64,000 nucleotides of DNA. Source: a virus. Under the pieces are notes generated by a model, which was not told where the DNA came from, did no database searches, and saw nothing but the letters and a program-made list of their open reading frames with translations. The stretch spans positions 1 to 64,000 of the IMG/VR virus record IMGVR_UViG_3300030103_003268; one strand, 5' to 3'. Within the stretch, counting starts at the first letter, position 1. Every line of letters starts with the position of its first letter. Below are positions 1 to 39,186 of the stretch, piece by piece. The position numbers were made by a program, and so were the translations under genes.

Positions 1-135
1 TGATTCGGTTTTGTTTCCATCGCCATCAATATCTATATAATCAGGTTTTGCCGCTTTTAATTCTTCATCATCGGTCTTTTCAGTCCCACAATGTCCTTTT
101 TCTTCTTCCTTTCGGATAATATCTCTCCAACTCAT
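1..135 (-). CDS. Small acidic protein, cut by left edge
   Basis: Reading leftward from the ATG at 133-135, 45 codons are open and run off the window. The visible protein starts MSWRDIIRKEEE and is strongly charged. Near its visible end it has DIDGDGNKTE, which resembles the calcium-binding loop of EF-hand or dockerin repeats (acidic residues alternating with glycine). The ATG overlaps the stop of the next gene upstream as ATGA, so the two are translationally coupled. Its N-terminus (W-x-x-I-I-R) resembles those of three other leftward genes here. The function is unknown; a calcium-binding virion or structural-module protein is only a guess. Confidence 0.6.
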   Translation of the reverse strand, partial: MSWRDIIRKEEEKGHCGTEKTDDEELKAAKPDYIDIDGDGNKTES

Positions 136-239
136 TTCTTCTCACCTGTTATTAAGTCTTTCTTTTGTTTTGCTTCTTCTTTGTCTAAACGCTTTGATTC
201 AGCGTCAAACCATGAATCTAAATAAGTGCATCTTGTCAT
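132..239 (-). CDS. 35-residue hypothetical protein
   Basis: A short ORF starting MTRCTYLDSW and ending ITGEKK. A good ribosome-binding site (GGAG, about 8 bases before the ATG) precedes it, and its stop overlaps the start of the next gene (ATGA). The second half is lysine/glutamate rich and probably helical. No family is recognised. The coupling on both sides and the ribosome site are the reasons for calling it real. Confidence 0.5.
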   Translation of the reverse strand: MTRCTYLDSWFDAESKRLDKEEAKQKKDLITGEKK

Positions 240-254
240 GTCAATTTCTCCAAA

Positions 255-911
255 TTAGAAATAATATCCTCTTCTTTCGGCTCTTAATTGACCTTCACTA
301 AATCCTCTATCCATATTTGCGCCCATTTCATTCATAGCAGCAACATATTCACTATATGAAATCTCTTCGTTCCTTAATTGCCTACTAAGTTCTTCGGCTC
401 TTTTCTCGTCCATTCTGTCATCATGCTTAATTCCGACATTAAATCCTAACCTGTTCATAACTAAAGCAGTAAAAGCAGTAGGGTCAGTTAATTCAAATGG
501 TAAATGTATATTTTCTATTTCAGGATAATCTCCGCCTACCCAATACGCTTCGGTGTCGGTGTCAAAATAAAGTATAATTTCTTTTCCTCTTGATTTGGCT
601 TTTACCGCTACACCAAAATGAAGATGACCACTAAAATCATCGGGGGTTTTTTCATTTATTAAATCAGCCACAAAACATTCAACACCCAAAGTATTCAAAG
701 CATCAATTCCTTTTTGAATATTAAATTGTTGAGCATCATTAGAGACAAAAAGACTACTAGCCTCTTTACTCCATGCGTTTTGCTTTAATCTTTCTTCTTC
801 TCCCTCCATTCCTGGATTACTAGCAGACCATTCCCATTCAAACTGCAAGTTCTTGGGCATAGAAGAGTATTTTTCGTTATCTTCCTTTTTAATCGTTGCT
901 TTCCATGTCAT
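255..911 (-). CDS. 218-residue hypothetical protein, W-x-x-x-I-K leader
   Basis: The start is supported by AAGGTGATATT just before the ATG. The N-terminus MTWKATIKKED resembles the leader-like start of neighbouring leftward genes. A mixed alpha/beta middle contains a segment with HLHFGVAVKAKSRGKEI followed by an acidic strand (YFDTDTEAYW). The C-terminal 60 residues are charged and helical and end in RRGYYF. There is no signal peptide or membrane segment. No family is recognised. The orientation matches the leftward structural module at 44.8-64 kb, which suggests a late or virion-associated role, but this is inference. Confidence 0.75.
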   Translation of the reverse strand: MTWKATIKKEDNEKYSSMPKNLQFEWEWSASNPGMEGEEERLKQNAWSKEASSLFVSNDAQQFNIQKGIDALNTLGVECFVADLINEKTPDDFSGHLHFGVAVKAKSRGKEIILYFDTDTEAYWVGGDYPEIENIHLPFELTDPTAFTALVMNRLGFNVGIKHDDRMDEKRAEELSRQLRNEEISYSEYVAAMNEMGANMDRGFSEGQLRAERRGYYF

Positions 912-954
912 AATATCACCTTAAAATTTCTCAAAAAAATGTGGCGGATTTTTT

Positions 955-1251
955 TCACCTATACTGTCTAATTTCTTTAAATCTATTAACATCAGCATAT
1001 CTATGAGTTCCTGCTCTTTTCTCTTTTGGTAAATCATAGCCGAGTTTCATAAGAGCCTCTTCTAAAACAATAAGATATTTCGGCATAGGAATATTTTTAT
1101 TTTTGTCTGTAATTCTAAATCCTCTATCTGCTCTTTCTGAATATTGCAGTAAATACTGATTAAAAGCCGCTTCATGCACCTGCTTTAAAGTCTCAATGAC
1201 TTCTTCTTCAACATCTGCTTCGGATTCTGCCTTTAAGATATTTTGCCACAT
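955..1251 (-). CDS. 98-residue hypothetical protein, MWQNILK start
   Basis: The ATG at 1249-1251 is preferred over an in-frame GTG nine bases upstream, because that GTG lies inside a GTGAT ribosome-binding sequence. The protein begins MWQNILKAESEADVEEEV, again the tryptophan plus I-L-K leader. It continues as a mostly helical, charged protein with a basic C-terminus. Nothing points to an enzyme. It is the first gene of the leftward group at the left edge; upstream lies an AT-rich stretch that probably holds its promoter. Confidence 0.65.
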   Translation of the reverse strand: MWQNILKAESEADVEEEVIETLKQVHEAAFNQYLLQYSERADRGFRITDKNKNIPMPKYLIVLEEALMKLGYDLPKEKRAGTHRYADVNRFKEIRQYR

Positions 1252-1305
1252 AGTAATCACTTTTTCTCAAAATTTGGCTCGGAATTTTTTTGGCACTTGC
1301 GTCCT

Positions 1306-1320
1306 CATTTAAATTTTTTT
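1306..1320 (-). promoter_or_regulatory. Possible TATA box for the leftward left-edge genes
   Basis: An AT-rich run (AAATTTAAATG on the minus strand) lies about 60 bases upstream of the ATG at 1251. That spacing would give a short leader with an archaeal TATA box. The rest of 1261-1441 contains no convincing ORF. No BRE-like element is obvious, so this is weak. Confidence 0.3.
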
Positions 1321-1441
1321 ATTTGTATTCCCAGGATAAAAACTTTTTCATTTAAAGTTGCTTGTTTAAAGATAATAAGTTTGGCCGCCGTGTAATAATG
1401 TTGTTATAACTAATCGGATTATCATAATTAATTTAATTATT

Positions 1442-1669
1442 TTAATTGCCAAAGTCTGTTAAAGTAGTTTGTTTATCATATCTATTAATAAAATCATTAA
1501 TATGGCTTTTTACCTGTTGTAGTTGCTGGCCCAATTCACCTAGTTTGGTAATACTGGCTATATCCATTTCCTTCAATTGTTTGCGTTTAGCCTTGATATC
1601 AGATAAAATAATAACAATCTCTTTATTGATACCCTGTAATAGTTCTAATGCCTTATCCTCACTAGACAT
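1442..1669 (-). CDS. 75-residue coiled-coil protein
   Basis: A short protein starting MSSEDKALELLQ with heptad-like hydrophobic spacing over residues 5-65, so probably one long helix or helical hairpin. An overlapping rightward ORF (1446-1706) is rich in Leu/Ile/Cys and looks like its shadow. There is no strong ribosome-binding site (only GATACAG before the ATG), which lowers confidence. It stands alone between two AT-rich intergenic stretches. Function unknown. Confidence 0.45.
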   Translation of the reverse strand: MSSEDKALELLQGINKEIVIILSDIKAKRKQLKEMDIASITKLGELGQQLQQVKSHINDFINRYDKQTTLTDFGN

Positions 1670-1808
1670 ACTGTATCATGTTATGGGAGTAGGCCATACC
1701 CTATAATGGTGGCGGTTTTACCCTTGTTTAATTAAAGATAATGCTTCAAAATAGGGCTTTTAAAGCATTTCGCTCTAAATGAGAAGAATTAAAAAATTTG
1801 AAACAAAG

Positions 1809-1816
1809 CCATATGG
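1809..1816. repeat. CCATATGG element, copy 1
   Basis: Core in the context CAAAG-CCATATGG-TTGTAG. Together with copy 2 it frames the long inverted repeat at 1840-1997. No gene is seen in 1670-2044. Confidence 0.75.
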
Positions 1817-1839
1817 TTGTAGATTATGAATGCGGGAAG

Positions 1840-1997
1840 AGTTGTTAATAACTACCATTTTCATCTATTGTCTTGTTTTCATCTTCCTTTACAGTTTGCT
1901 ATAGAACGCTATTGGTAACTACAAAATGTTTGTTTATAGCCATCTATGATGAATAACTATCTAATGCAGAAACCCTAAATGATAGTTATTAACAACT
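1840..1997. repeat. Perfect 15-bp inverted repeat around a 128-base AT-rich spacer
   Basis: AGTTGTTAATAACTA at 1840-1854 and its exact reverse complement at 1983-1997. CCATATGG elements lie just outside both arms (1809 and 2004), so about 200 bases form one nested inverted structure. The spacer holds no ORF. It could be a recombination or replication structure, or a relic of an inverted duplication. Confidence 0.7.
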
Positions 1998-2002
1998 TTA
2001 CA

Positions 2003-2012
2003 ACCATATGGT
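2003..2012. repeat. CCATATGG element, copy 2
   Basis: ACCATATGGT with CTTTG to its right. It forms the right flank of the 1840-1997 inverted repeat. Confidence 0.75.
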
Positions 2013-2044
2013 CGTAACTTTGAGTAATGACCCGAAGGCCGCCA

Positions 2045-2170
2045 TTAACGGCAATCGGGGCAAATCCAAACGATTCGCAATTCCTTAACCCAAGTATCAT
2101 TTCCAAATTGGTCGTAAAAACGAACAGTTCCATCAGCGTTGCATTCTTCACAATACATTGTCTCTTCCAT
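2045..2170 (-). CDS. 41-residue zinc-ribbon microprotein
   Basis: The ORF encodes a protein with CEEC at residues 7-10 and CPDC at the extreme C-terminus, the spacing of a two-knuckle zinc ribbon, with a beta-rich segment (VRFYDQFG) between. An in-frame ATG at 2197 would add nine residues; neither start has a clear Shine-Dalgarno sequence. It lies between two CCATATGG elements, and a weak rightward ORF (2139-2330) overlaps its start. Zinc ribbons of this size are frequent in this genome. Role unknown; nucleic-acid or protein binding is plausible. Confidence 0.55.
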   Translation of the reverse strand: MEETMYCEECNADGTVRFYDQFGNDTWVKELRIVWICPDCR

Positions 2171-2217
2171 GCTTAACCCGCAAATGGGCGTATTCATTGA
2201 GGTATTACCAAAGCACT

Positions 2218-2227
2218 ACCATATGGT
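2218..2227. repeat. CCATATGG element, copy 3
   Basis: Context CAAAGCACT-ACCATATGGT-GTTGCTTTG: the AAAGCA/TGCTTT arms extend the palindrome to about 30 bases. I see no convincing gene in 2171-2399. Confidence 0.8.
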
Positions 2228-2399
2228 GTTGCTTTGCTATAACCCTGAAGTGGGACGGGAAGAATTACCTCTTTTCTTCCCGCCCCCGTATTCCCTCTAT
2301 TCCCTGTTTGTTTGGGTCATAGTGCCATAACGAGAGGCTCATGGCTAACGGGCCGCTTTTAGGGTGCTTACGGACTTCATGCCGTATTTGGTGAGTTAT

Positions 2400-2720
2400 T
2401 CAAAGCACACGGCCATTTGAGAAGTCTTCACCCCAAATGGACTTATATTGAGCCAAAAAGTATTGAGCAAAGCGCACAGCGTCAAAATTCCCATTATCAC
2501 GGGAAAACATATTAATCATATGATTAACAATATCTGCGTTAATATCACGCCATCGGGCAAGCATTTCAGCCATTTTCTTATAGTGTCGTCGTTGGAACAT
2601 GATTAACCGCTTAAGACTCACATATAAGGTTTTATTACCAAAGTATGCAACCATATGGTTAGGCTTTGCATTAACCCCATATAGGGGCTTCACAGGGGAA
2701 TTAGCCGTGAAGAGTCTCAT
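2400..2720 (-). CDS. Hypothetical protein, 106 residues (66 if the later start is used)
   Basis: The frame opens with an ATG overlapping the stop of the upstream paralogue gene (ATGA), but the first 40 codons run across a CCATATGG element. A second start at 2600 (MFQRRHYKKM) would give a 66-residue basic, helical protein and leave the repeat outside the gene, as at the other copies. The C-terminal part (ARWRDINADIVNHMINMF, then FAQYFLAQYKSIWGED) looks like a compact helical domain. Function unknown. The GAGGAGG sequence lies too close to the first ATG to settle the start. Confidence 0.5.
   Translation of the reverse strand: MRLFTANSPVKPLYGVNAKPNHMVAYFGNKTLYVSLKRLIMFQRRHYKKMAEMLARWRDINADIVNHMINMFSRDNGNFDAVRFAQYFLAQYKSIWGEDFSNGRVL
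2650..2659. repeat. CCATATGG element, copy 4
   Basis: Context CAAAGTATGCA-ACCATATGGT-TAGGCTTTGCA. It lies inside the 5' part of the 2400-2720 frame if the first start there is used. Confidence 0.75.
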
Positions 2721-3232
2721 TCCTCCTCGGAACCCTCCATATCTGCTTTCGCAGGGGTTGGTTCAATTTGAGGAACCCCGTCTTTAACGGCTACGCCGTC
2801 CCAACGGTTGTCTTTGATTGACTTAACCATGTAGGCATGAGCCTTACCACGGAAAGAGTCCACCAATTCGCTGAATGAACCATATACTCCACCAGTTCGG
2901 CCATGTGGCACGATAACTGACAGAATCAAGTTGTGGTATTCAGTAGGGATTGCAGCAATAGCACCTGCCACGGTTTCCTCCACAGTCGCCAAAACAAGTT
3001 CCTGTTCGTCCGAGAGGGTTGATTCTCGCCCTCGTCGTGCCGCAGGAAAACCCTCCATAGTGGAGCCTATTGAACGAATTGCCGTCCAATAGGTGCTTCG
3101 TAGGTCGTCTGTTCCCGCATTATCGCCCAATGTGAGCGAAAGGAGAACAGCACTCAAGTTGTCGCTTTTTGGCTGTGTTTCAGCCCAAGCCCGCACTTTG
3201 TTTGTGTTCAGTGTCCAATTCTTCATCTTCAT
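2717..3232 (-). CDS. Paralogue family member 1 (171 residues)
   Basis: One of three related proteins in the window (also 4210-4716 and 6472-6945). Shared blocks with the 4210 copy are LRSTYWTAIRSIGS, FPAARRGRES, PHGRTGG and a C-terminal RWDG. The N-terminal third contains a short Trp-rich segment (NWTLNTNKVRAW); the rest is predicted mixed helical. The ATG at 3232 follows AGGTGAAGAAAT. It is followed by the 2400-2720 gene with ATGA overlap. No known domain is recognised. The conserved Arg-rich central block could bind nucleic acid, but that is speculation. The family lies on both sides of the repeat-rich zone. Confidence 0.85.
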   Translation of the reverse strand: MKMKNWTLNTNKVRAWAETQPKSDNLSAVLLSLTLGDNAGTDDLRSTYWTAIRSIGSTMEGFPAARRGRESTLSDEQELVLATVEETVAGAIAAIPTEYHNLILSVIVPHGRTGGVYGSFSELVDSFRGKAHAYMVKSIKDNRWDGVAVKDGVPQIEPTPAKADMEGSEEE

Positions 3233-3340
3233 ATTTCTTCACCTTTCCTTAAAAAAGATACTCTCACGCCGTTTTCCCCTGTGGAGCGATAATAAGGGTA
3301 TGGCATCGCATAAGGTTGTTTCCACGCAAAGCAAGAAACA

Positions 3341-3350
3341 ACCATATGGT
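3341..3350. repeat. CCATATGG element, copy 5
   Basis: Full element about 3314-3360: GGTTGTTTC (3314-3322) pairs with GAAACAACC (3335-3343), and GCAAAGCAA pairs with TTGCTTTGT across ACCATATGGT. Two alternative hairpins are therefore possible. Confidence 0.85.
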
Positions 3351-3397
3351 ATTGCTTTGTTAATACCCTAAACAATACAATAAGTCAAAGAAGAGAC

Positions 3398-3652
3398 ATG
3401 CACGCAGACAAATCGCAGAAAATCGCTAATCTCTTAGTAAATACCTTCCCAAGCCTTCGGCCTTGGATTGAAGCCCAATACCATTCAGCCTTTTTGAAAG
3501 ATATGATGGTTTATGCCGACGAACCTAACGCTATGATTGCTATGTGCGAATTTGCGGCTTCTATTGAGGCTTTCGCTGATACTATCGCAGAAGTCTCATT
3601 TGATGAGATGATACGCATTATGACTGATATGGGATGGGAGGTGCTTGAATGA
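3398..3652 (+). CDS. 84-residue hypothetical protein
   Basis: An acidic, helical protein (MHADKSQKIANLL at the start, DMGWEVLE at the end). Its stop overlaps the ATG of the zinc-ribbon gene downstream, so the two form a small operon. The ribosome site is weak (GAAGAGAC). Residues 30-80 could form a helical bundle. No family is recognised. It lies just after a CCATATGG element, opposite in strand to the flanking paralogue genes. Confidence 0.6.
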   Translation: MHADKSQKIANLLVNTFPSLRPWIEAQYHSAFLKDMMVYADEPNAMIAMCEFAASIEAFADTIAEVSFDEMIRIMTDMGWEVLE

Positions 3653-3783
3653 TTTCCCACTGCCCCACCTGTAAAAGAGAATTGGCTAAAGATGATTTTA
3701 TGTCCTTTGCCTTTATCCTTGGAGGAGACATTTGCCGCTATTGTCTTGATGATGAGCCTTCGGGCCAGTATAACAAAGTATGA
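3649..3783 (+). CDS. 44-residue zinc-ribbon microprotein
   Basis: CPTC at residues 5-8 and CRYC at 29-32 give a compact zinc ribbon (MISHCPTCKREL at the start). It is coupled to the preceding gene by a 4-base ATGA overlap. The stop codon TGA sits directly at the left edge of CCATATGG element 6, so the element begins where the gene ends. Probably a small binding or adaptor protein; target unknown. Confidence 0.6.
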   Translation: MISHCPTCKRELAKDDFMSFAFILGGDICRYCLDDEPSGQYNKV

Positions 3784-3792
3784 CCATATGGT
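3783..3792. repeat. CCATATGG element, copy 6
   Basis: Context AACAAAGTATG-ACCATATGGT-TGCGGAACTTTGTT. It immediately follows the stop codon of the zinc-ribbon gene. Downstream CGCAACCCCATA can also pair with the TATGGTTGCG of the core. Confidence 0.85.
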
Positions 3793-3853
3793 TGCGGAAC
3801 TTTGTTTTCTGAAAGGAAACGCAACCCCATAACCGCATAACGCCGGATGAGGC

Positions 3854-4105
3854 ATGAAAGCAACCCTAACTCAAGATTTACTTACTGGAGAGTGCCGTAT
3901 TAGTATTAAAACCTGTTCGGAGGCCATCAACTACATGGGAGAAATCTTCGGCTTTATCAAAGATAATGGCTTTTATTGCCGAATGACCACTGATTTCTAT
4001 ACGGTCAATTTCACCATTCGTGGCGACGAGGACATAGCGGCCCGTGTCCCTAAAATCATGGGATTCATTAATGACATCACCTGTGGTCGCATTAAGCGTG
4101 ATTAA
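3854..4105 (+). CDS. 83-residue hypothetical protein
   Basis: The start is supported by GATGAGG a few bases before the ATG. The protein (MKATLTQDLLTGECRISIK at the start) looks alpha/beta, with alternating strands in residues 40-60 (FYTVNFTIRGDED) and a basic C-terminus. There is no cysteine motif, signal or membrane helix. It stands alone between two CCATATGG elements. No family is recognised. Confidence 0.6.
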   Translation: MKATLTQDLLTGECRISIKTCSEAINYMGEIFGFIKDNGFYCRMTTDFYTVNFTIRGDEDIAARVPKIMGFINDITCGRIKRD

Positions 4106-4135
4106 CGGCCTTCGGGCCAATTTAACCAAAGTAAG

Positions 4136-4145
4136 CCCATATGGT
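4136..4145. repeat. CCATATGG element, copy 7
   Basis: CCCATATGGT in the context ACCAAAGTAAG-core-TGTGCTTTGCC, about 30 bases after the stop of the preceding gene. A second hairpin, CCCCACC-CATA-GGTGGGG, follows at 4170-4187 and could act as a terminator. Confidence 0.75.
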
Positions 4146-4209
4146 TGTGCTTTGCCAGTTGAAAACGGAACCCCACCCATAGGTGGGGCTGCGAGGGGAA
4201 AGACCCGCA

Positions 4210-4716
4210 TCATTCCTCTTCTTGACCTCCTTCAGCAGATTTAACCGCAGGTGGGGTCATAGTTGGGATTTCACCGTTCATAGAACCATCCCAACGACCT
4301 TCTTTGTAGCCCTTAACGAGCGCATCATAGGCTTTCTTACCCATTGAACGGGCAAAGGCCATGATATCTTCATAATCGCCACCAGTTCGCCCGTGAGGGA
4401 GAATAACGGTAGTAATGAGGTCAGGGTTAGTAATGCCCGCAAAGGCAGTAATAACCGCATTCTTCACAGAAGTCGCATTTAGGTCTACTTCTTCGGGCAA
4501 AGATGATTCTCGGCCTCGGCGGGCGGCTGGGAAATCGTCATAAGGACTCCCAATAGAACGAATAGCCGTCCAGTATGTAGACCGCAATTCGTCGTTATCC
4601 GTTGCATTTCCAAGTGTAATAGAAAGAGAAATGGCTTGACCCACATCTCCCCTATCTTCAAGTTCAAGCCATGCTTGAACCGCATTCGTGTTCTTAATCC
4701 AGTTGTCTTGCTTCAT
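4210..4716 (-). CDS. Paralogue family member 2 (168 residues)
   Basis: The closest relative is the gene at 2717-3232: the two share LRSTYWTAIRSIGS, FPAARRGRES and LPHGRTGG almost unchanged and diverge mainly at the ends. The start at 4716 (MKQDNWIKNTN) has an ideal GGAGG eight bases upstream; an upstream in-frame start would lie beyond that site. The protein ends in EGGQEEE. Function unknown. Like member 1 it is followed by a structured repeat. An arrangement of duplicated leftward genes facing small rightward genes suggests local duplication within this zone. Confidence 0.85.
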   Translation of the reverse strand: MKQDNWIKNTNAVQAWLELEDRGDVGQAISLSITLGNATDNDELRSTYWTAIRSIGSPYDDFPAARRGRESSLPEEVDLNATSVKNAVITAFAGITNPDLITTVILPHGRTGGDYEDIMAFARSMGKKAYDALVKGYKEGRWDGSMNGEIPTMTPPAVKSAEGGQEEE

Positions 4717-4775
4717 AATCAATTCCTCCAAAAAGGTTTGATGCGTCCGTTTTCCCCTCGGAGCAACTAATGGCG

Positions 4776-4837
4776 ACCATAGGCGACTATGGTTGCTTTT
4801 TCATTAACACTCGCAAAGCGAAAAGCAACCATATGGT
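4776..4837. repeat. CCATATGG element, copy 8, with upstream hairpin
   Basis: ACCATAG-GCGA-CTATGGT (4776-4793) is followed by TATGGTTGCTTTTTC, which pairs with GAAAAGCAACCATA leading into ACCATATGGT (4828-4837). GCAAAGC and GCTTTGC flank the core. This is the most elaborate copy. It sits upstream of the 4716 start, within a gene-poor stretch (4717-5522). Confidence 0.8.
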
Positions 4838-4879
4838 TGTAATTATGCTTTGCATTAATAAAACCATAAAGAAGGCTAC

Positions 4880-4938
4880 ACTAAACGGACAGGGAAAAGC
4901 CTATATTGGTGCATTTCGTGCTAATTTGTCCGTTTAGT
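4880..4938. repeat. Perfect 11-bp inverted repeat with 37-base spacer
   Basis: ACTAAACGGAC at 4880-4890 and GTCCGTTTAGT at 4928-4938. The spacer has no ORF. It may be a paired protein-binding site, a stem in a transcript, or a recombination site. Confidence 0.65.
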
Positions 4939-4939
4939 G

Positions 4940-5400
4940 GGTGAATACAAAACGCCGCCTACTCCATTCATATCCGACTAACTGCCTTACTGTTGTTTCC
5001 GTCTCTAATTCGGCATGCCTCCTTAGATTTGTTTCCTTTCGGGTCTTACTACGCTGTGTTTCGGCTTTGTTTCCGATTGATGTTTATGGCCAATCAACCA
5101 AGGGAATTTGAAAAGGGTGGGATGAAGAATTGGGTATCTCCAAGTATGATGCGATTGGGTCGCACTCACTTTTGAACGCTCCTTAGATTTCGTCTTAAGA
5201 GCCATACTACCGATTTCATGAAGTTAGTTTGTAGCCAACCGCCTTTTGAGCCTTAATCACTTTCACAGGGAACAATTAATCTGCCTCTTGGCCGTCATAA
5301 CTGCTATGTGTCCCACAACAGGAGAAATCGTCCATTACCCCCGTTCAAAAGGGCATTAATGGTAATCCCCTCCGAGGGAGCGACCCCCGAAGCAATAGAA
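4940..5400. other. Gene-poor stretch with no confident feature
   Basis: Only weak frames are present: a 60-residue basic minus-strand frame (5023-5205) and a 60-residue plus-strand frame (4993-5175). Neither has a convincing ribosome site or composition. CTCCTTAGATTT occurs twice (near 5021 and 5182). I cannot support a gene here. Confidence 0.4.
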
Positions 5401-5446
5401 CCGAGCGATTATCGCTTATGGTTCTCTATAAGCAAAGCAATATAGA

Positions 5447-5456
5447 ACCATATGGT
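5447..5456. repeat. CCATATGG element, copy 9
   Basis: ATGGTTCTCTATA (from 5419) can pair with TATAGAACCAT leading into the core. GCAAAGCAA and TGCTTTGTT flank ACCATATGGT. The two-hairpin plan is the same as in copies 5 and 8. Confidence 0.85.
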
Positions 5457-5522
5457 AATGCTTTGTTATTTACCCCAACGCTCCATTATTAAAGGCATTT
5501 GAAGGGGCAATCCGCTATTTCA

Positions 5523-5639
5523 CTACTCTTCCTCCTGTATATAAGCCATACTCAGCAAAGCGGCCTCAATGACCAGTCCGTTCTTATTACACAGTTTCAC
5601 AAGGGCTTTAGCCAATCCACACCAATCCATAGTCTTCAT
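5523..5639 (-). CDS. 38-residue hypothetical protein
   Basis: A short leftward ORF starting MKTMDWCGLAKAL and ending YIQEEE, with an amphipathic helical pattern (LAKALVKLCNKNGLVIEAAL). The Glu-rich C-terminus is typical of many genes in this window. The upstream sequence AAGATAAAC is a poor ribosome site. It is a better candidate than the overlapping Ser/Leu-rich rightward frame (5499-5687). Function unknown. Confidence 0.4.
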   Translation of the reverse strand: MKTMDWCGLAKALVKLCNKNGLVIEAALLSMAYIQEEE

Positions 5640-5733
5640 GTTTATCTTAAGTGGGTATGTTCGCAACTTGTTGATTTAAATGTTTAATGTTTCAATTTAA
5701 ATTTTTAGAGGGTATTTATAACAAAGCAACAAT

Positions 5734-5743
5734 ACCATATGGT
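5734..5743. repeat. CCATATGG element, copy 10
   Basis: ACCATATGGT preceded by ACAAAGCAACAAT. The right arm is degenerate (TTGATAC). It lies across a weak rightward frame (5687-5902) that I do not call. Confidence 0.7.
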
Positions 5744-5828
5744 TTGATACTATCAAAGAGCGCAGAATATTCTTATTTAGCGATATTCAATGACACTGAA
5801 ATGGGGAGAATTTTCAACCCCCAAAAAT

Positions 5829-5844
5829 CTGTCAAATTTGACAG
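5829..5844. promoter_or_regulatory. Perfect 16-bp palindrome, operator candidate
   Basis: CTGTCAAATTTGACAG reads the same on both strands. It lies in a non-coding AT-rich stretch just before the TGTCTCA repeat cluster, as expected for a dimeric regulator or initiator site. No gene is supported in 5640-6471. Confidence 0.55.
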
Positions 5845-5922
5845 GGTGTTTCTCAACTGTGGTTATATTAATTCGTATTCATATTCTAATATTCAATATT
5901 AGTATTATAGTAAAATAAATGG

Positions 5923-6217
5923 GTTGTCTCATGGTCGGGAGGGGATGAGACGAGACAACTCAGGGAAGAATCATTAAGGTTATGCAACATAAGTAAAAAT
6001 ATATTTCTATTATCTCATTATCTCATCATCTCATCATCATCATCTTCTTCTCTCTGCATAACCCCTTATTTTCTTAGGGGCTAGGGAGAGAGAAATATAT
6101 GGAACTTTGATGAGACGAGATGAGACAACTCTTTTTTGCGGGTTTCGTCAAGGTTTTGCAGGGTTGTGTTGCATAACCCCGTTGTCTCAAGATGAGACAA
6201 TAGGCGAGACAGTCTCA
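5923..6217. other. Candidate replication origin: TGTCTCA/TGAGACA repeat cluster
   Basis: A non-coding stretch with repeated GAGAC motifs: TGTCTCA at 5925 and 6183, TGAGACGAGACA at 5946, TGAGACGAGATGAGACA at 6111-6127, TGAGACA at 6193, and a run of TCATCATC. Paired TTATGCAACA (5980-5989) and TGTTGCATAA (6167-6176), plus a direct repeat TGCATAACCCC (6055 and 6170), frame the middle. Iterated short motifs, AT-rich DNA and a position next to the start of the rightward replication module fit an origin. A regulatory region is the alternative. Confidence 0.5.
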
Positions 6218-6405
6218 ACGACGGGGAACCAAAAGTTATTTCATTTGGCGAACTATTGTTGTAAATAAAATCTATTTGATTCAACAAAAGAATTATCTCA
6301 CCATTTAATTAAAAATACAAAGATGAAACACATCGGAGTCGCAGGAAACTTTCTTGGTAAAATGTTGGTAATTCCCTCAAGGGAGGTGCATTCGGAGGCA
6401 TTTCT

Positions 6406-6420
6406 GGACTCCTTTATATA
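6406..6420 (+). promoter_or_regulatory. Promoter with shared GGACTCC-TTTATATA box
   Basis: GGACTCCTTTATATA lies 51 bases before the ATG at 6472, the right distance for an archaeal TATA box with a leader of about 25-30 bases. The same 15 bases precede the ubiquitin-like gene (15096) and occur once inside the clamp-loader gene (31888). GGACTCC occupies the BRE position read by TFB proteins. Confidence 0.7.
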
Positions 6421-6471
6421 CCGAAAGACAACTGTTGAGAATACCCCGCAAAGGGGAAGGAGAGAATATAC

Positions 6472-6945
6472 ATGGATGATACCACATGGGAAAGCCTCAA
6501 AATTGAGGTGAACGAATACCTAGAAGCCGACACTACGCTTGATGCTGGATTGCGTCAAGTCGTTGAATTGAACCTGCAAATCGGGACGAACAACCCCGAT
6601 GAGCGAACTGCCGCCGAAGGTGCGCTTAAAGCACTTTTGAAGGGAAGAGACGGAACTCCGTTCCGCCGAGGCCAAAAGAGCGCAGTTCCAGCCGCAGTTC
6701 GTGTTTCTATTGACCGAATCTGTGGAGTTGTTGAAGAAGCCGCTATTGGCTACTACAACCACGATGCAGTTATTGGTGCAATTACAATGAAGCACATCAA
6801 ATCTGGTGGCGGAAACTTTGATGGCGCAGAAGATTACGCTTCTGCTGTCGTTAAGCGAACCCGAAACAACCTTGGCAAAATGTTCAAGGCTGGCGATTGG
6901 GACGGTAGCGTTGATTCCCTTTTAGGCGAATCAAGCGACCTTTGA
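6472..6945 (+). CDS. Paralogue family member 3 (157 residues)
   Basis: A divergent member of the family at 2717 and 4210. It keeps the order of blocks: a short N-terminal helix (TTWESLKIEV), a central basic block (PFRRGQKS in place of FPAARRGRES), then a Gly-rich GGGNF and a C-terminal GDWDGS. It has its own promoter (6406-6420), a strong ribosome site (GGAAGGAG) and a run of hairpins behind it, so it is probably transcribed as a single gene at high level. Function unknown. Its position at the head of the rightward module and next to the origin candidate suggests an early role. Confidence 0.85.
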   Translation: MDDTTWESLKIEVNEYLEADTTLDAGLRQVVELNLQIGTNNPDERTAAEGALKALLKGRDGTPFRRGQKSAVPAAVRVSIDRICGVVEEAAIGYYNHDAVIGAITMKHIKSGGGNFDGAEDYASAVVKRTRNNLGKMFKAGDWDGSVDSLLGESSDL

Positions 6946-6970
6946 GATTAAAACCTCAAACAACCGCTTA

Positions 6971-7040
6971 TCAGGTCAATGACCTGAACAACGGGGAATA
7001 GGAGTCTAAGGACTCCTATTCTCCCCTTTTCCACAAGGGG
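6971..7040 (+). terminator. Tandem hairpins after the third paralogue
   Basis: TCAGGTC-AAT-GACCTGA (6971-6987) is followed by AATAGGAGTC-TAAG-GACTCCTATT inside GGGG/CCCC (6993-7026) with TTTT next, and then CCCCTT-TTCCAC-AAGGGG (7023-7040). The middle stem plus T-run looks like a terminator. A further GAAGAGAG/CTCTCTTC pairing extends to 7089. Confidence 0.65.
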
Positions 7041-7107
7041 GAAGAGAGGCGCATGAAAATGCTTTGCTGGCAAGGCTTTCTCTCTTCTCCCGCCTTTGGG
7101 TGGTTTG

Positions 7108-7365
7108 ATGCGTTTAGTTGAAGAAGTCTTTGTCAAAACAAAAGAAGATTTAATTTGCCAGTCTTGCGGTGTTGATATACCAAAAGACAGCAACCATCTT
7201 CTTGAGTCTTATGTTCATCATGGCGTTATTTCAACTAGTCATTACTGTTTAAACCCAAAGTGCAATCCACCTAATAATGTTCGTTTGAAGTTATTTTGGG
7301 GAACACTAGCCACAGGCGTTTCTCTGTGGTTAATCTACTTTTTCTATCAAAACGCTGCGTTTTGA
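7108..7365 (+). CDS. Zinc-ribbon protein with C-terminal membrane helix
   Basis: An 85-residue protein from the ATG at 7108, preceded by GGTGGTTTG. CQSC and CLNPKC form a zinc knuckle pair in the first two thirds. The last 25 residues (FWGTLATGVSLWLIYFFYQ) are a clear transmembrane helix, so the zinc domain would face one side of the host membrane with a tail anchor. It stands alone between a hairpin cluster and tRNA-Leu. Function unknown; a membrane-tethered host-interaction protein is plausible. Confidence 0.7.
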   Translation: MRLVEEVFVKTKEDLICQSCGVDIPKDSNHLLESYVHHGVISTSHYCLNPKCNPPNNVRLKLFWGTLATGVSLWLIYFFYQNAAF

Positions 7366-7509
7366 ATCTATTCATTCAAAGTTTGGGGGGTGGCCCCGCA
7401 ACATATACGCCCTCGGCAGGTGGGGGTATGCTTCAACAGTCGCCAAGCGACATGGTTTCACTTTTTTAATTTGAAATGGTGTGGTTTTCTTCTGTTTAAG
7501 TATTTTAAC

Positions 7510-7593
7510 GCTGAGATGGCTGAGTTTGGTTAAAAGCGCAGGGCTTAAACTCCTGTCCGTATTGGTTCGCAGGTTCAAATCCTGCTCTCAGCA
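7510..7593 (+). tRNA. tRNA-Leu (anticodon TAA)
   Basis: The acceptor stem GCTGAGA (7510-7516) pairs with TCTCAGC (7586-7592), discriminator A. The anticodon stem CAGGG/TCCTG encloses the loop CTTAAAC, giving TAA. A 13-base variable arm (class II) is followed by a T arm GCAGG-TTCAAAT-CCTGC. The CCA end is not encoded. It would read UUA codons, which are common in this AT-rich genome. Confidence 0.93.
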
Positions 7594-7601
7594 CTTTTAC
7601 A

Positions 7602-7665
7602 TGGGGAAGGTTGAACAGGGGGCTAAAGAGTAATGACCGAGTAATCGGTTTTGTTCCCTTCCCCA
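7602..7665 (+). ncRNA. Structured element between tRNA-Leu and the helicase
   Basis: TGGGGAAGG (7602-7610) pairs perfectly with CCTTCCCCA (7657-7665), and an inner hairpin CCGA-GTAA-TCGG lies at 7637-7648. It sits nine bases after the tRNA. It may be a small RNA co-processed with the tRNA, or a terminator/leader structure for the helicase gene. Confidence 0.45.
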
Positions 7666-7695
7666 CCTATTCTCTATTTTTAAGAGGTAATAAAA

Positions 7696-9123
7696 ATGCA
7701 ACACACAAACGAACAAGAAGCAATTTTCAATTGCATAGAAAAAACAGACGACCACCTAATTATCAATGCAGGTGCGGGAACAGGAAAAACAACAACAATT
7801 GTTGAAGCAGCAAATCGTATCAATGGGGAGAAAGCCGCATTCTTGGCATTCAATAAATCTATTGCTACTGAATTAGCAGAAAGACTTCCAACTGGCGTAG
7901 AAGCGAAAACCTTTCACGCCTTTGGTTTCGCTGCGATTCGTGCCGCCGGTGTCAAAACAAAGGTGAACAATTTTAAGGTCAATAACATTATCAAAGAACT
8001 TCATGGTGCTGATTTCTACATCGCCCCACTAAAGAAACTTGTTTCTCTTGTTAAGGGAAGTATGGTTAATGGAACTGACAAGAAAGCCATCAATCAACTG
8101 ATTGATGAATACAATATCAACTTCAATTCAGACCGTGAAGAACGGATTGCAGTAGAATCAATACCTGCAATTCTCACGATGTGCCGAACACAAACCCATG
8201 TCATTGATTTTGATGATATGATTTGGATGCCTATTGTTAATGACTATCCTTTCCCAAAATACGATGTTTTGTTTGTTGATGAAGCACAAGATTTTAACGA
8301 AGTGCAACGAGAAATGATTTCTTTGTGCGTTAATGGCGGTCGCTGTATTATTGTTGGAGATAAAAACCAAGCAATTTACGGCTTCCGTGGTGCTGACTCA
8401 AACTCAATTGATATGTTTCGGCAACGGCTTCTCAAAGGAGAAAGAAAAATCAGCGAATTTCCTCTTTCAATTACTTGGCGCTGTCCTAATTCAGTGGTTC
8501 GTGAGGCTAACCGATATGTGCATGAGTTTAATGCACCTGATTTTGCCGAAGAAGGAGCAGTTATCGTAGATGCTCCATTCACACCACAACGAAATGATAT
8601 GGTTCTTTGCCGATACAATGCTCCTTTGGTGTCTGCTTTCTATGATTTGATTTCACAGGGCAAATCGGCTTATGTTCTTGGTCGTGATATGACGAAGGGT
8701 TTAATTACCGCCGTTCAAAAGATTTCTAAGAACAACCACATGGGCGTTGATGAGTTTTTGCAGTTGTTCCAAAAGGACTTTGCATATAACTATCAACGGC
8801 TTCTTGACCAAAACAAAGAGAATCAAGCGATGGCTCTTGAAGATAAGCGTGATTGTATTATGATTTTTGTTCAAAAAGCAACAACTGTTGGTGGAATCAT
8901 TGAAGAGATTAAGCGTGTCTTTGATGGAAATGATAAAGGTGAAATTATGCTTTCTACTGTTCACAAGGCTAAGGGTCTTGAAGCAGACAATGTTTATATT
9001 CTCGCAACTGAGCGAATGCCCCATCCTTATGGAAGTAAGGAAGAGAACAACATTTGCTATGTAGCGATTACACGGGCTAAAAAGAACTTGTTCTATGTTG
9101 GCCCAAAACCGGGAAAAGTTTGA
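7696..9123 (+). CDS. UvrD/PcrA-type SF1 helicase
   Basis: A 475-residue superfamily 1A DNA helicase. It has Walker A GAGTGKT (residues 26-32), Walker B/motif II VDEAQD near residue 196, motif III VGDKNQAIYGFRGA, motif V STVHKAKGLEADNV, and motif VI YVAITRAKKNLFYV at the C-terminus. It is shorter than bacterial UvrD (about 720), so the 1B/2B subdomains are reduced. Likely roles are 3'-5' unwinding in replication restart, recombination or repair. An AAGAGGTAA ribosome site precedes the ATG. It opens a long rightward run of small genes. Confidence 0.95.
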   Translation: MQHTNEQEAIFNCIEKTDDHLIINAGAGTGKTTTIVEAANRINGEKAAFLAFNKSIATELAERLPTGVEAKTFHAFGFAAIRAAGVKTKVNNFKVNNIIKELHGADFYIAPLKKLVSLVKGSMVNGTDKKAINQLIDEYNINFNSDREERIAVESIPAILTMCRTQTHVIDFDDMIWMPIVNDYPFPKYDVLFVDEAQDFNEVQREMISLCVNGGRCIIVGDKNQAIYGFRGADSNSIDMFRQRLLKGERKISEFPLSITWRCPNSVVREANRYVHEFNAPDFAEEGAVIVDAPFTPQRNDMVLCRYNAPLVSAFYDLISQGKSAYVLGRDMTKGLITAVQKISKNNHMGVDEFLQLFQKDFAYNYQRLLDQNKENQAMALEDKRDCIMIFVQKATTVGGIIEEIKRVFDGNDKGEIMLSTVHKAKGLEADNVYILATERMPHPYGSKEENNICYVAITRAKKNLFYVGPKPGKV

Positions 9124-38292: not shown

Positions 38293-39186
38293 ATGAAAGT
38301 AGTTTATGGACATACAGATTCTATCTATGTGCAGATAGATTCGGTGGAACAAGCACAAAAATCAATTAAAAAGATTGAGGCAAAAGTGCGTGAGAGTTTT
38401 CCTAATGTAATGGGATTAGACAATCATCCTGTTGTTCTTGAGTTTGAGAAGTATTATTCGGCATTGGGTGTAGGAACAACCAAAAACAGAAATGCAGGTT
38501 TAGTATCTTGGGAAGATGGAGAATGGTTAGAAAAGCCAAAGTTTAGCATGACTGGCTTTACGGCAAAGCGAGTTAGTGAAACAAAATTAGCAAAGAGAGT
38601 TCAAACTAATACTCTTAAAATGTGGGTTGAAGGTAAAACACAAGCAGAAATTGTGCAATACTTACACAGAGAATATACAACCGTTCTTGATGGGCAGATT
38701 AGCATAATGCCTCTTATTAAAAGAAGTCGTCTAAGGAAAAATCGTTTCACAGTAAAATGCCCTGAATGTAAAACACAGTATCATTTGCGTGATTGTGTTC
38801 ATTTAAAGCATGAAGTTTGTGAAAAGTGCGCTACTCCAACAAAACAATTTACTACTCTTGAGGGAAAGAAGCCGACAATTGGTTCAGGTATTGCTGGCGT
38901 TTTATATGCTTGGGAAAAGAAAGATGCTAATTTTGATGACTCTTATATTTACTTAAAAGTAAAGGGTGTAAATGATTTTTATACGCATCCTTTAACGCAT
39001 GAAAGGCGAGAAGTTGAATACATATCAGGCACAACCGCTAAGGATTTAGGCAGTTGTAGAGCAGACTTAGCCTTCTATTCGCAACAGGTTATCAAGAAGG
39101 CGGAACCCATTTTCAAGGCTATGGGATGGGACACATCGGCCATACGCACAGGAAAAATACAGTCAAGCCTTGACGAATGGTGGTGA
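38293..39186 (+). CDS. polB: Family B DNA polymerase, C-terminal part (motif C and thumb)
   Basis: 297 residues starting right at motif C: MKVVYGHTDSIYV. The first Asp of the usual D-T-D is His; the second Asp, which binds the catalytic metal, is kept. MTGFTAKRVSETKLAKRVQ corresponds to the KxY-like/thumb entrance. A CPEC...CEKC zinc site lies at residues 156-179, inside the thumb, which is unusual. The rest completes the thumb. GATGATAAT is a weak start site, so expression may depend on coupling. It must pair with the 35468 product to be active. Confidence 0.9.
   Translation: MKVVYGHTDSIYVQIDSVEQAQKSIKKIEAKVRESFPNVMGLDNHPVVLEFEKYYSALGVGTTKNRNAGLVSWEDGEWLEKPKFSMTGFTAKRVSETKLAKRVQTNTLKMWVEGKTQAEIVQYLHREYTTVLDGQISIMPLIKRSRLRKNRFTVKCPECKTQYHLRDCVHLKHEVCEKCATPTKQFTTLEGKKPTIGSGIAGVLYAWEKKDANFDDSYIYLKVKGVNDFYTHPLTHERREVEYISGTTAKDLGSCRADLAFYSQQVIKKAEPIFKAMGWDTSAIRTGKIQSSLDEWW

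Follow-up and report, generated by a model that had tools for sequence, protein, structure and literature searches.

Our finding that ten copies of a short palindrome, CCATATGG, mark the boundaries of exchangeable gene cassettes in a marine archaeal virus suggests that these palindromes are, with fair probability, active and structure-guided recombination joints of a viral gene-cassette array. The DNA analysed here (64,000 nucleotides, hereafter the window) comprises bases 1-64000 of the 94,476-bp IMG/VR record IMGVR_UViG_3300030103_003268, a magrovirus (Magrovirales), and the array occupies a single zone near its left end. Judged from comparison of related sequences, the palindromes are the joints of a shuffling array, rather than iterons, regulator sites or RNA-processing signals. 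A search of the literature returned no account of cassettes or palindromes in magroviruses.

The ten copies of CCATATGG that a first-pass annotation of the window had listed between 1809 and 5735 are all present where it placed them. In total, the 64-kb window holds 11 occurrences (expected 0.85 ± 0.90; none of 100 shuffled sequences reaches 11), and outside the array the core is found in the record only at 36577, so that the palindrome is indeed concentrated in one zone and not spread at equal density. The full 10-mer ACCATATGGT occurs eight times in the entire record, every time within 2003-5743, with the copies at 1809 and 4137 being devoid of its A. The CAAAG and CTTTG arms described in the same annotation accompany nearly all copies, and DNA folding confirms that alternative hairpins can form at the core. 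Local hairpins are specifically favoured (pairing probabilities 0.33 and 0.30, versus 0.08 and 0.12 for controls with shuffled flanks). The long hairpin that spans the core reaches 0.31, against 0.30 in its shuffled-flank control, and is thus a product of the fixed motifs themselves.

Inspection by eye reveals the layout of a joint as [GGT..CAAAG..ACC] ATAT [GGT..CTTTG..ACC], that is, two back-to-back hairpins with AAA and TTT loops, each of which is the half-site of its own adjoining cassette. Among 894 distinct half-sites, 157 carry beyond CTTTG the reverse complement of their own 6-nt arm (counted from GG), while 10 are expected when computed from other half-sites; for arms of 5 nt and 4 nt the corresponding values are 299 versus 33 and 507 versus 79, and the bases on either side of CTTTG are complementary in 431 half-sites versus 290 expected. 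The core shows no variation in the 243 copies having both flanking arms, the stems covary, and the gaps separating CAAAG, the core and CTTTG range from 0 to ∼14 bases. Half-sites are alike at both ends of a gene, with CTTTG found at 195 of 210 5' ends and 184 of 210 3' ends, and, of the joints, 85 separate tandem, 17 divergent and 16 convergent genes. In L070, L075 and L124 the arrays are dense (spacing ∼100–350 bp) and CAAAG/CTTTG are missing at many cores, which may represent a variant joint.

Measured from core to core, cassettes have a median length of 540 bp and usually contain one small gene. On the 5' side of the gene, a TATA-like box comes immediately after the hairpin in 48% of cases (15% on the 3' side), and a short GC hairpin is present on the 3' side in 44% (versus 6%). 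Cassettes thus look like autonomous transcription units; as they usually bring along a TATA-like box and a 3' hairpin, their order and orientation should not matter for their function. Within the arrays, 161 genes are on the minus and 100 on the plus strand. The 332 cassettes fall into 65 clusters present in more than one array and 127 singletons. Clusters recur with other neighbours and in other order (40 of 364 shared pairs are in opposite order), and some recur inverted. Most informative are 91 pairs of junctions, from 18 clusters, in which the same cassette adjoins unrelated neighbours: identity is mostly 0.6–0.9 before the core, 1.00 through the core, and 0.31 at position +6. This drop just past the core places the exchange point inside the 10-bp core, each hairpin moving with its own cassette.

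Individual events can be recognized between related viruses. The window and relative L160, which remain collinear over 8 kb of flanking genome on either side and whose shared cassettes are 74–93% identical, differ by three cassette gains or losses and one swap of adjacent cassettes (C0-C3-C62 versus C0-C62-C3), the neighbouring cassettes being kept. A single 165-bp cassette distinguishes L045 from L169, and L042/L167 show the in-place inversion of one cassette (704/706 bp). Taken together, these sequence comparisons indicate that cassettes have been gained, lost, moved and turned around by crossovers lying within the core.

The element is kept in many relatives among the IMG/VR magrovirus contigs, as was to be checked according to the first-pass annotation: a pattern scan of IMG/VR yielded at least 120 stretches, many of them holding several copies. 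A second scan, for the A/T-rich left end AAATTT..CAAAGCCATATGG, yielded 82 stretches, nearly all at the start of an array; a handful of matches without TTGT/TTGG after the core were taken as chance matches. This left end is fixed, and in the window it lies at 1786-1816 on the plus strand (AAATTTGAAACAAAG joined to CCATATGG), where the left side lacks a full hairpin. The A/T-rich anchor is common to 77 oriented loci (a few of them chance matches), and array cores are always located on its ATGG side, that is, the array is polar. Among 15 contigs with a length of 50 kb or more (the record of the window and others picked by PolB alone), 14 contain 7–20 cores, the exception being a 75-kb contig; array contigs without PolB are mostly short fragments. 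In 84,980 prokaryote genomes we found 31 single matches, near the chance estimate of ∼28 for that pattern, and a sole array (L188, in the bin 'Altibacter sp. EAC109'). Its anchor and cassettes are magroviral, and it is a magrovirus contig misbinned in a bacterial metagenome-assembled genome. Left of the anchor, a gene on the minus strand (1442-1669) encodes a 75-residue coiled-coil-like protein, a homologue of which lies 90–210 bp from the anchor in 27 viruses, with an analogous gene in 7 more. Its C-terminus, KQTTLTDFGN, is PIP-box-like and resembles a PCNA-binding motif.

The window itself contains nine cassettes. Cassette 1 (1813-2007, with no strand assigned) lacks an open reading frame (ORF), folds over its entire length into one hairpin (RNA z -2.9) and has a conserved block in its interior. 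It is the conserved first cassette of the window's virus group, while other groups have different ORF-less first cassettes of 155–220 bp; a small RNA or an origin are possible identities. Joint 2 (1989-2033, core 2004-2011) leads to cassette 2 (2008-2222, minus strand), which carries a gene for a 50-residue zinc-ribbon-like protein (2045-2197, with a weak match to Pfam PF08274) and is missing in L160 and L141, both of which keep the neighbouring cassettes. Beyond joint 3 (2208-2238, core 2219-2226) follows cassette 3 (2223-2654, minus strand), with a small gene at about 2400-2600, whose cluster, C14, is found in 4 arrays with differing neighbours. Joint 4 (2634-2675, core 2651-2658) precedes cassette 4 (2655-3345, minus strand; gene 2717-3232) of cluster C1, present in 13 arrays with 10 different left neighbours. 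Cassette 5 (3346-3787, plus strand; genes 3398-3652 and 3649-3783; cluster C26, 3 arrays) lies between joint 5 (3317-3364, core 3342-3349), where both local hairpins form in the folding calculations, and joint 6 (3774-3825, core 3784-3791). Cassette 6 (3788-4140, plus strand; gene 3854-4105) is missing from L160 at the same place, and joint 7 (4125-4170, core 4137-4144) has convergent genes on either side. Cassette 7 (4141-4832, minus strand; gene 4210-4716) belongs to cluster C0, which adjoins 11 different left and 12 different right neighbours across its 16 arrays. Joints 8 (4794-4867, core 4829-4836) and 9 (5418-5475, core 5448-5455), likewise with both local hairpins, bracket the RNA cassette 8 (4837-5447, minus strand, cluster C3) discussed below, and cassette 9 (5452-5738, minus strand, cluster C62) contains a short ORF (5523-5666). 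At the distal array end (5718-5760, core 5735-5742) relatives share a fixed right flank; homology of L146, L158 and L172 with this flank begins at the core, and the cassettes on the left differ.

Cassette 8 contains no conserved ORF and appears to encode a structured non-coding RNA of ∼600 nt. An alignment of seven homologues comprises 124 base pairs with 98.4% of cells paired, and 41 pairs exhibit compensatory changes on both sides, versus 19.2 ± 2.6 in shuffled alignments and 2–9 for slid structures. A model of the central 127-column domain identifies 23 magrovirus loci, seven of them being the seed sequences; in the alignment of these loci, fitted to the model, 37 of 39 pairs show compensatory changes (covariation score 0.80 versus 0.20 when shuffled). 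Flanks are known for 21 of the loci, and in every one of these a single cassette bounded by two joints contains the domain; with respect to the anchor, both orientations occur. Searches against Rfam yielded, apart from a tRNA, only sub-threshold chance matches (E≤5) for window positions 1-8000, and nothing but tRNAs at the gathering score for four relatives. We regard 4837-5447 (minus strand) as a strong candidate for a new family of large RNAs that travel as mobile cassettes. GOLLD/ROOL-type RNAs are large structured RNAs of phages; the cassette 8 RNA likewise is a large structured viral RNA, but one without an Rfam match and residing in a mobile magrovirus cassette.

The genes of cassettes 4 and 7 belong to a family of all-helical proteins of ∼165 residues that is a hallmark of the arrays: it is present in 51 of the arrays analysed, often with 2–3 paralogues per virus. 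The two products are 47% identical to each other, and a third member of the family (6472-6945, plus strand; 28% identical to the C0 protein, E 3e-12) is encoded outside the array just beyond its distal end, with homologues on the same side in 20 viruses. The predicted structure of the hallmark protein is confident and all-helical (predicted local distance difference test score, pLDDT, 89). That the protein is itself a recombinase was considered and dropped: the PDB provided no informative fold match (VIA Z ≤6.5, the noise level for helical bundles). The BFVD contains only unnamed viral relatives, Pfam yields nothing above noise, and the C0 protein has no match among 50,697 phage records. It may be cargo or a part of the machinery. 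PHROGs and Pfam gave no matches for the other small cargo proteins of the array. A further inverted repeat (CACAGGGGAAAA-like) is located just inside both ends of the hallmark-gene cassettes (2680-2720/3250-3290 and 4186-4215/4730-4775).

The assignment to the magroviruses is based on the profile of the International Committee on Taxonomy of Viruses (ICTV): the record encodes PolB, a chaperonin (a thermosome), an ATP-dependent DNA ligase, and RFC-like and TFB-like proteins, and has the opposed arms of replication and virion genes and the size (∼90–100 kb) given there. It also encodes a B12-type ribonucleotide reductase, a tail tube protein and an XPF-type nuclease. Early genes occupy the right and late genes the left, matching the ICTV description, and the array sits at the early/late divide between two divergent arms, at the minimum of the GC skew. 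Relative L160 runs unbroken across both ends of the contig, indicating a circular or circularly permuted molecule. Two separate genes (35468-37156 and 38293-39186) make up a split PolB, and an HNH/NinG-like gene (37153-37818) lies between them. A P-loop protein encoded beside RFC-S (30266-31114, plus strand) exhibits weak AAA_24/Sak4 similarity and a PIP-like C-terminus (TQTVLEEYYA). Given the RFC-S neighbour and the PIP-like tail, a Sak4-like identity was abandoned, and the protein is probably a clamp-loader subunit.

As for the mechanism, the half-sites may be extruded as hairpins with TTT or AAA loops, and a structure-specific enzyme would then break the DNA in or at the palindromic core. 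With all ends being the same palindrome, any end could be rejoined to any other in either orientation, and the outcome would be an integron-like platform turning over early small genes and RNA genes. Covarying hairpins fit structure-specific cutting. The viral XPF/ERCC4-type nuclease, present in 16 of 17 array-bearing records, together with the viral DNA ligase, or else an unrecognised recombinase, are candidates only. The window's virus also encodes a NinG/HNH-like protein and a PD-(D/E)XK exonuclease; nothing ties the XPF-type or the NinG/HNH-like nuclease to the joints.

Several observations weigh against active recombination at the joints. Searches of 18 records detected neither tyrosine recombinases including integron integrases (PF00589, 0 of 18 records; control rings 14 of 14) nor serine recombinases (PF00239, 0 of 18), and no Y1 transposase above the cut-off (PF01797, 0 of 18), with one sub-threshold match (G002, E 0.0015). 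With no recombinase family among these records, enzymatic site-specific recombination is something that we infer. The absence of an integrase, a resolvase and a convincing Y1 transposase agrees with the published statement on magroviruses (ICTV profile). The shared core of 8–10 bp could also serve recombination by microhomology or annealing, and the hairpin pairing of ∼0.3 is a value computed for DNA. Moreover, the events were deduced by comparing related viruses, which are not independent samples, and many of them separate viruses that are 75–95% identical and hence provide neither timing nor rate. Finally, we saw no excised cassette, empty site or within-population polymorphism. The candidate empty site CAAAGCCATATGGCTTTG gave two matches, both due to chance.

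The main rival is general annealing recombination, as has been proposed for the PeSL elements of T4-like phages. The element would then mainly be a transcription boundary, such as an insulator, a terminator or a processing hairpin, and shuffling a by-product of general viral annealing or homologous recombination at the core as the only sequence common to the boundaries. PeSL stem-loops are reported (as cited in PMC4503421) to mediate gene shuffling, an analogous motif has been proposed for the haloarchaeal virus HGTV-1 (PMC3950731), the cassettes have promoter-like and terminator-like signals of their own, and a PD-(D/E)XK exonuclease is encoded. Yet hairpins occur with about the same frequency at either end of a gene and in every gene context, the promoter-side hairpin lies upstream of the TATA-like box and hence outside its own gene's transcript, the common homology is just 8–10 bp, and in-place inversions fit a palindromic joint. 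We thus consider passive shuffling rather unlikely.

The remaining explanations had been raised in the first-pass annotation and fare less well. Iterons of an origin, or sites bound by a viral initiator or regulator, would agree with the fixed palindromic core and the location at the skew minimum between divergent arms, and the array is indeed near a possible origin; this nearness does not explain the cassette exchange at the core. The variable spacing of the arms, the covarying stems, the presence of one copy per cassette end and a copy number that tracks the number of cassettes make such sites very improbable. A shade more improbable is a signal at the RNA level, with processing or end-formation hairpins dividing one long array transcript: stem covariation is compatible with both RNA and single-stranded DNA, but the element sits alike between divergent, convergent and tandem genes (which also argues against a promoter role), genes run in both directions per array so that no single transcript covers all, and the exact DNA exchange at the core is left unexplained. 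Of the proposed mobile palindrome family, the mobility survives in spirit; what moves is the cassette between two palindromes. A self-mobile palindrome that spread between genes in the manner of miniature inverted-repeat transposable elements or repetitive extragenic palindromes would account for many palindromic, intergenic copies, and is hardly tenable, since the halves of a joint differ and each follows its own cassette, the rest of the genome has only the lone core at 36577, and a Y1 transposase above the cut-off is absent.

Comparison with known systems helps to delineate the recombination joints proposed here. PeSLs (Arbiol 2010; Comeau 2014; via PMC4503421 and PMC3950731) are described as composite promoter-terminator motifs. 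They likewise are stem-loops between small early genes which take part in modular shuffling among related phages, with no dedicated recombinase known. They differ in that the magrovirus joint (i) has two symmetric hairpins flanking an invariant palindrome, (ii) does not include the promoter-like box, which belongs to the cassette and is confined to the 5' side of its gene, and (iii) separates genes facing both ways in an array with a fixed polar anchor. With integrons (attC/attI/IntI) the array shares small cassettes, hairpin-forming sites of variable sequence at which exchange occurs, a distinct site at one end, and the gain, loss and reordering of cassettes. Unlike integrons, the 18 records lack IntI or any tyrosine recombinase, and the attC R boxes (RYYYAAC...GTTRRRY) are found in 0 of 204 elements. 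Integron cassettes are largely promoterless and in one orientation, whereas the symmetric sites here allow both orientations, cassettes often have a TATA-like box, and the hosts are lytic archaeal viruses. The haloarchaeal myovirus HGTV-1 is likewise an archaeal tailed virus with many small genes, each accompanied by a conserved intergenic motif that contains an inverted repeat and TATA-like boxes. Our examination showed that two TATA-like boxes enclosing a conserved CTCCTCGTGGCACGGGGAG repeat precede its same-strand genes, and that it lacks both the CCATATGG joint (one core in 50 kb) and the double hairpin. HF2, also an archaeal tailed virus with repeated intergenic elements, differs in that these, according to PMC8707807, are sequence-conserved promoters keeping their positions in relatives, and not palindromic joints of shuffled cassettes.

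It is thus tempting, though tentative, to speculate that the array represents a new class of structure-guided cassette recombination, with symmetric double-hairpin joints around a palindromic core and an enzyme unrelated to known recombinases. In this way, a single anchored locus beside the divide between replication and late genes would allow a lytic archaeal virus to take up autonomous cassettes, bearing genes or RNAs, and to change their order and orientation, and the array would also spread the ∼600-nt RNA. If a dedicated enzyme acts on the joints, it would constitute a recombination system outside the known families. In addition, the joints provide an address for the systematic discovery of new viral genes, the large structured RNA included. 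Magroviruses are reported to be abundant viruses of a dominant group of marine archaea and to encode no integrase or transposase (ICTV profile), and their exchange of small early genes, presumably those that meet host defences, would be explained by an anchored shuffling array.

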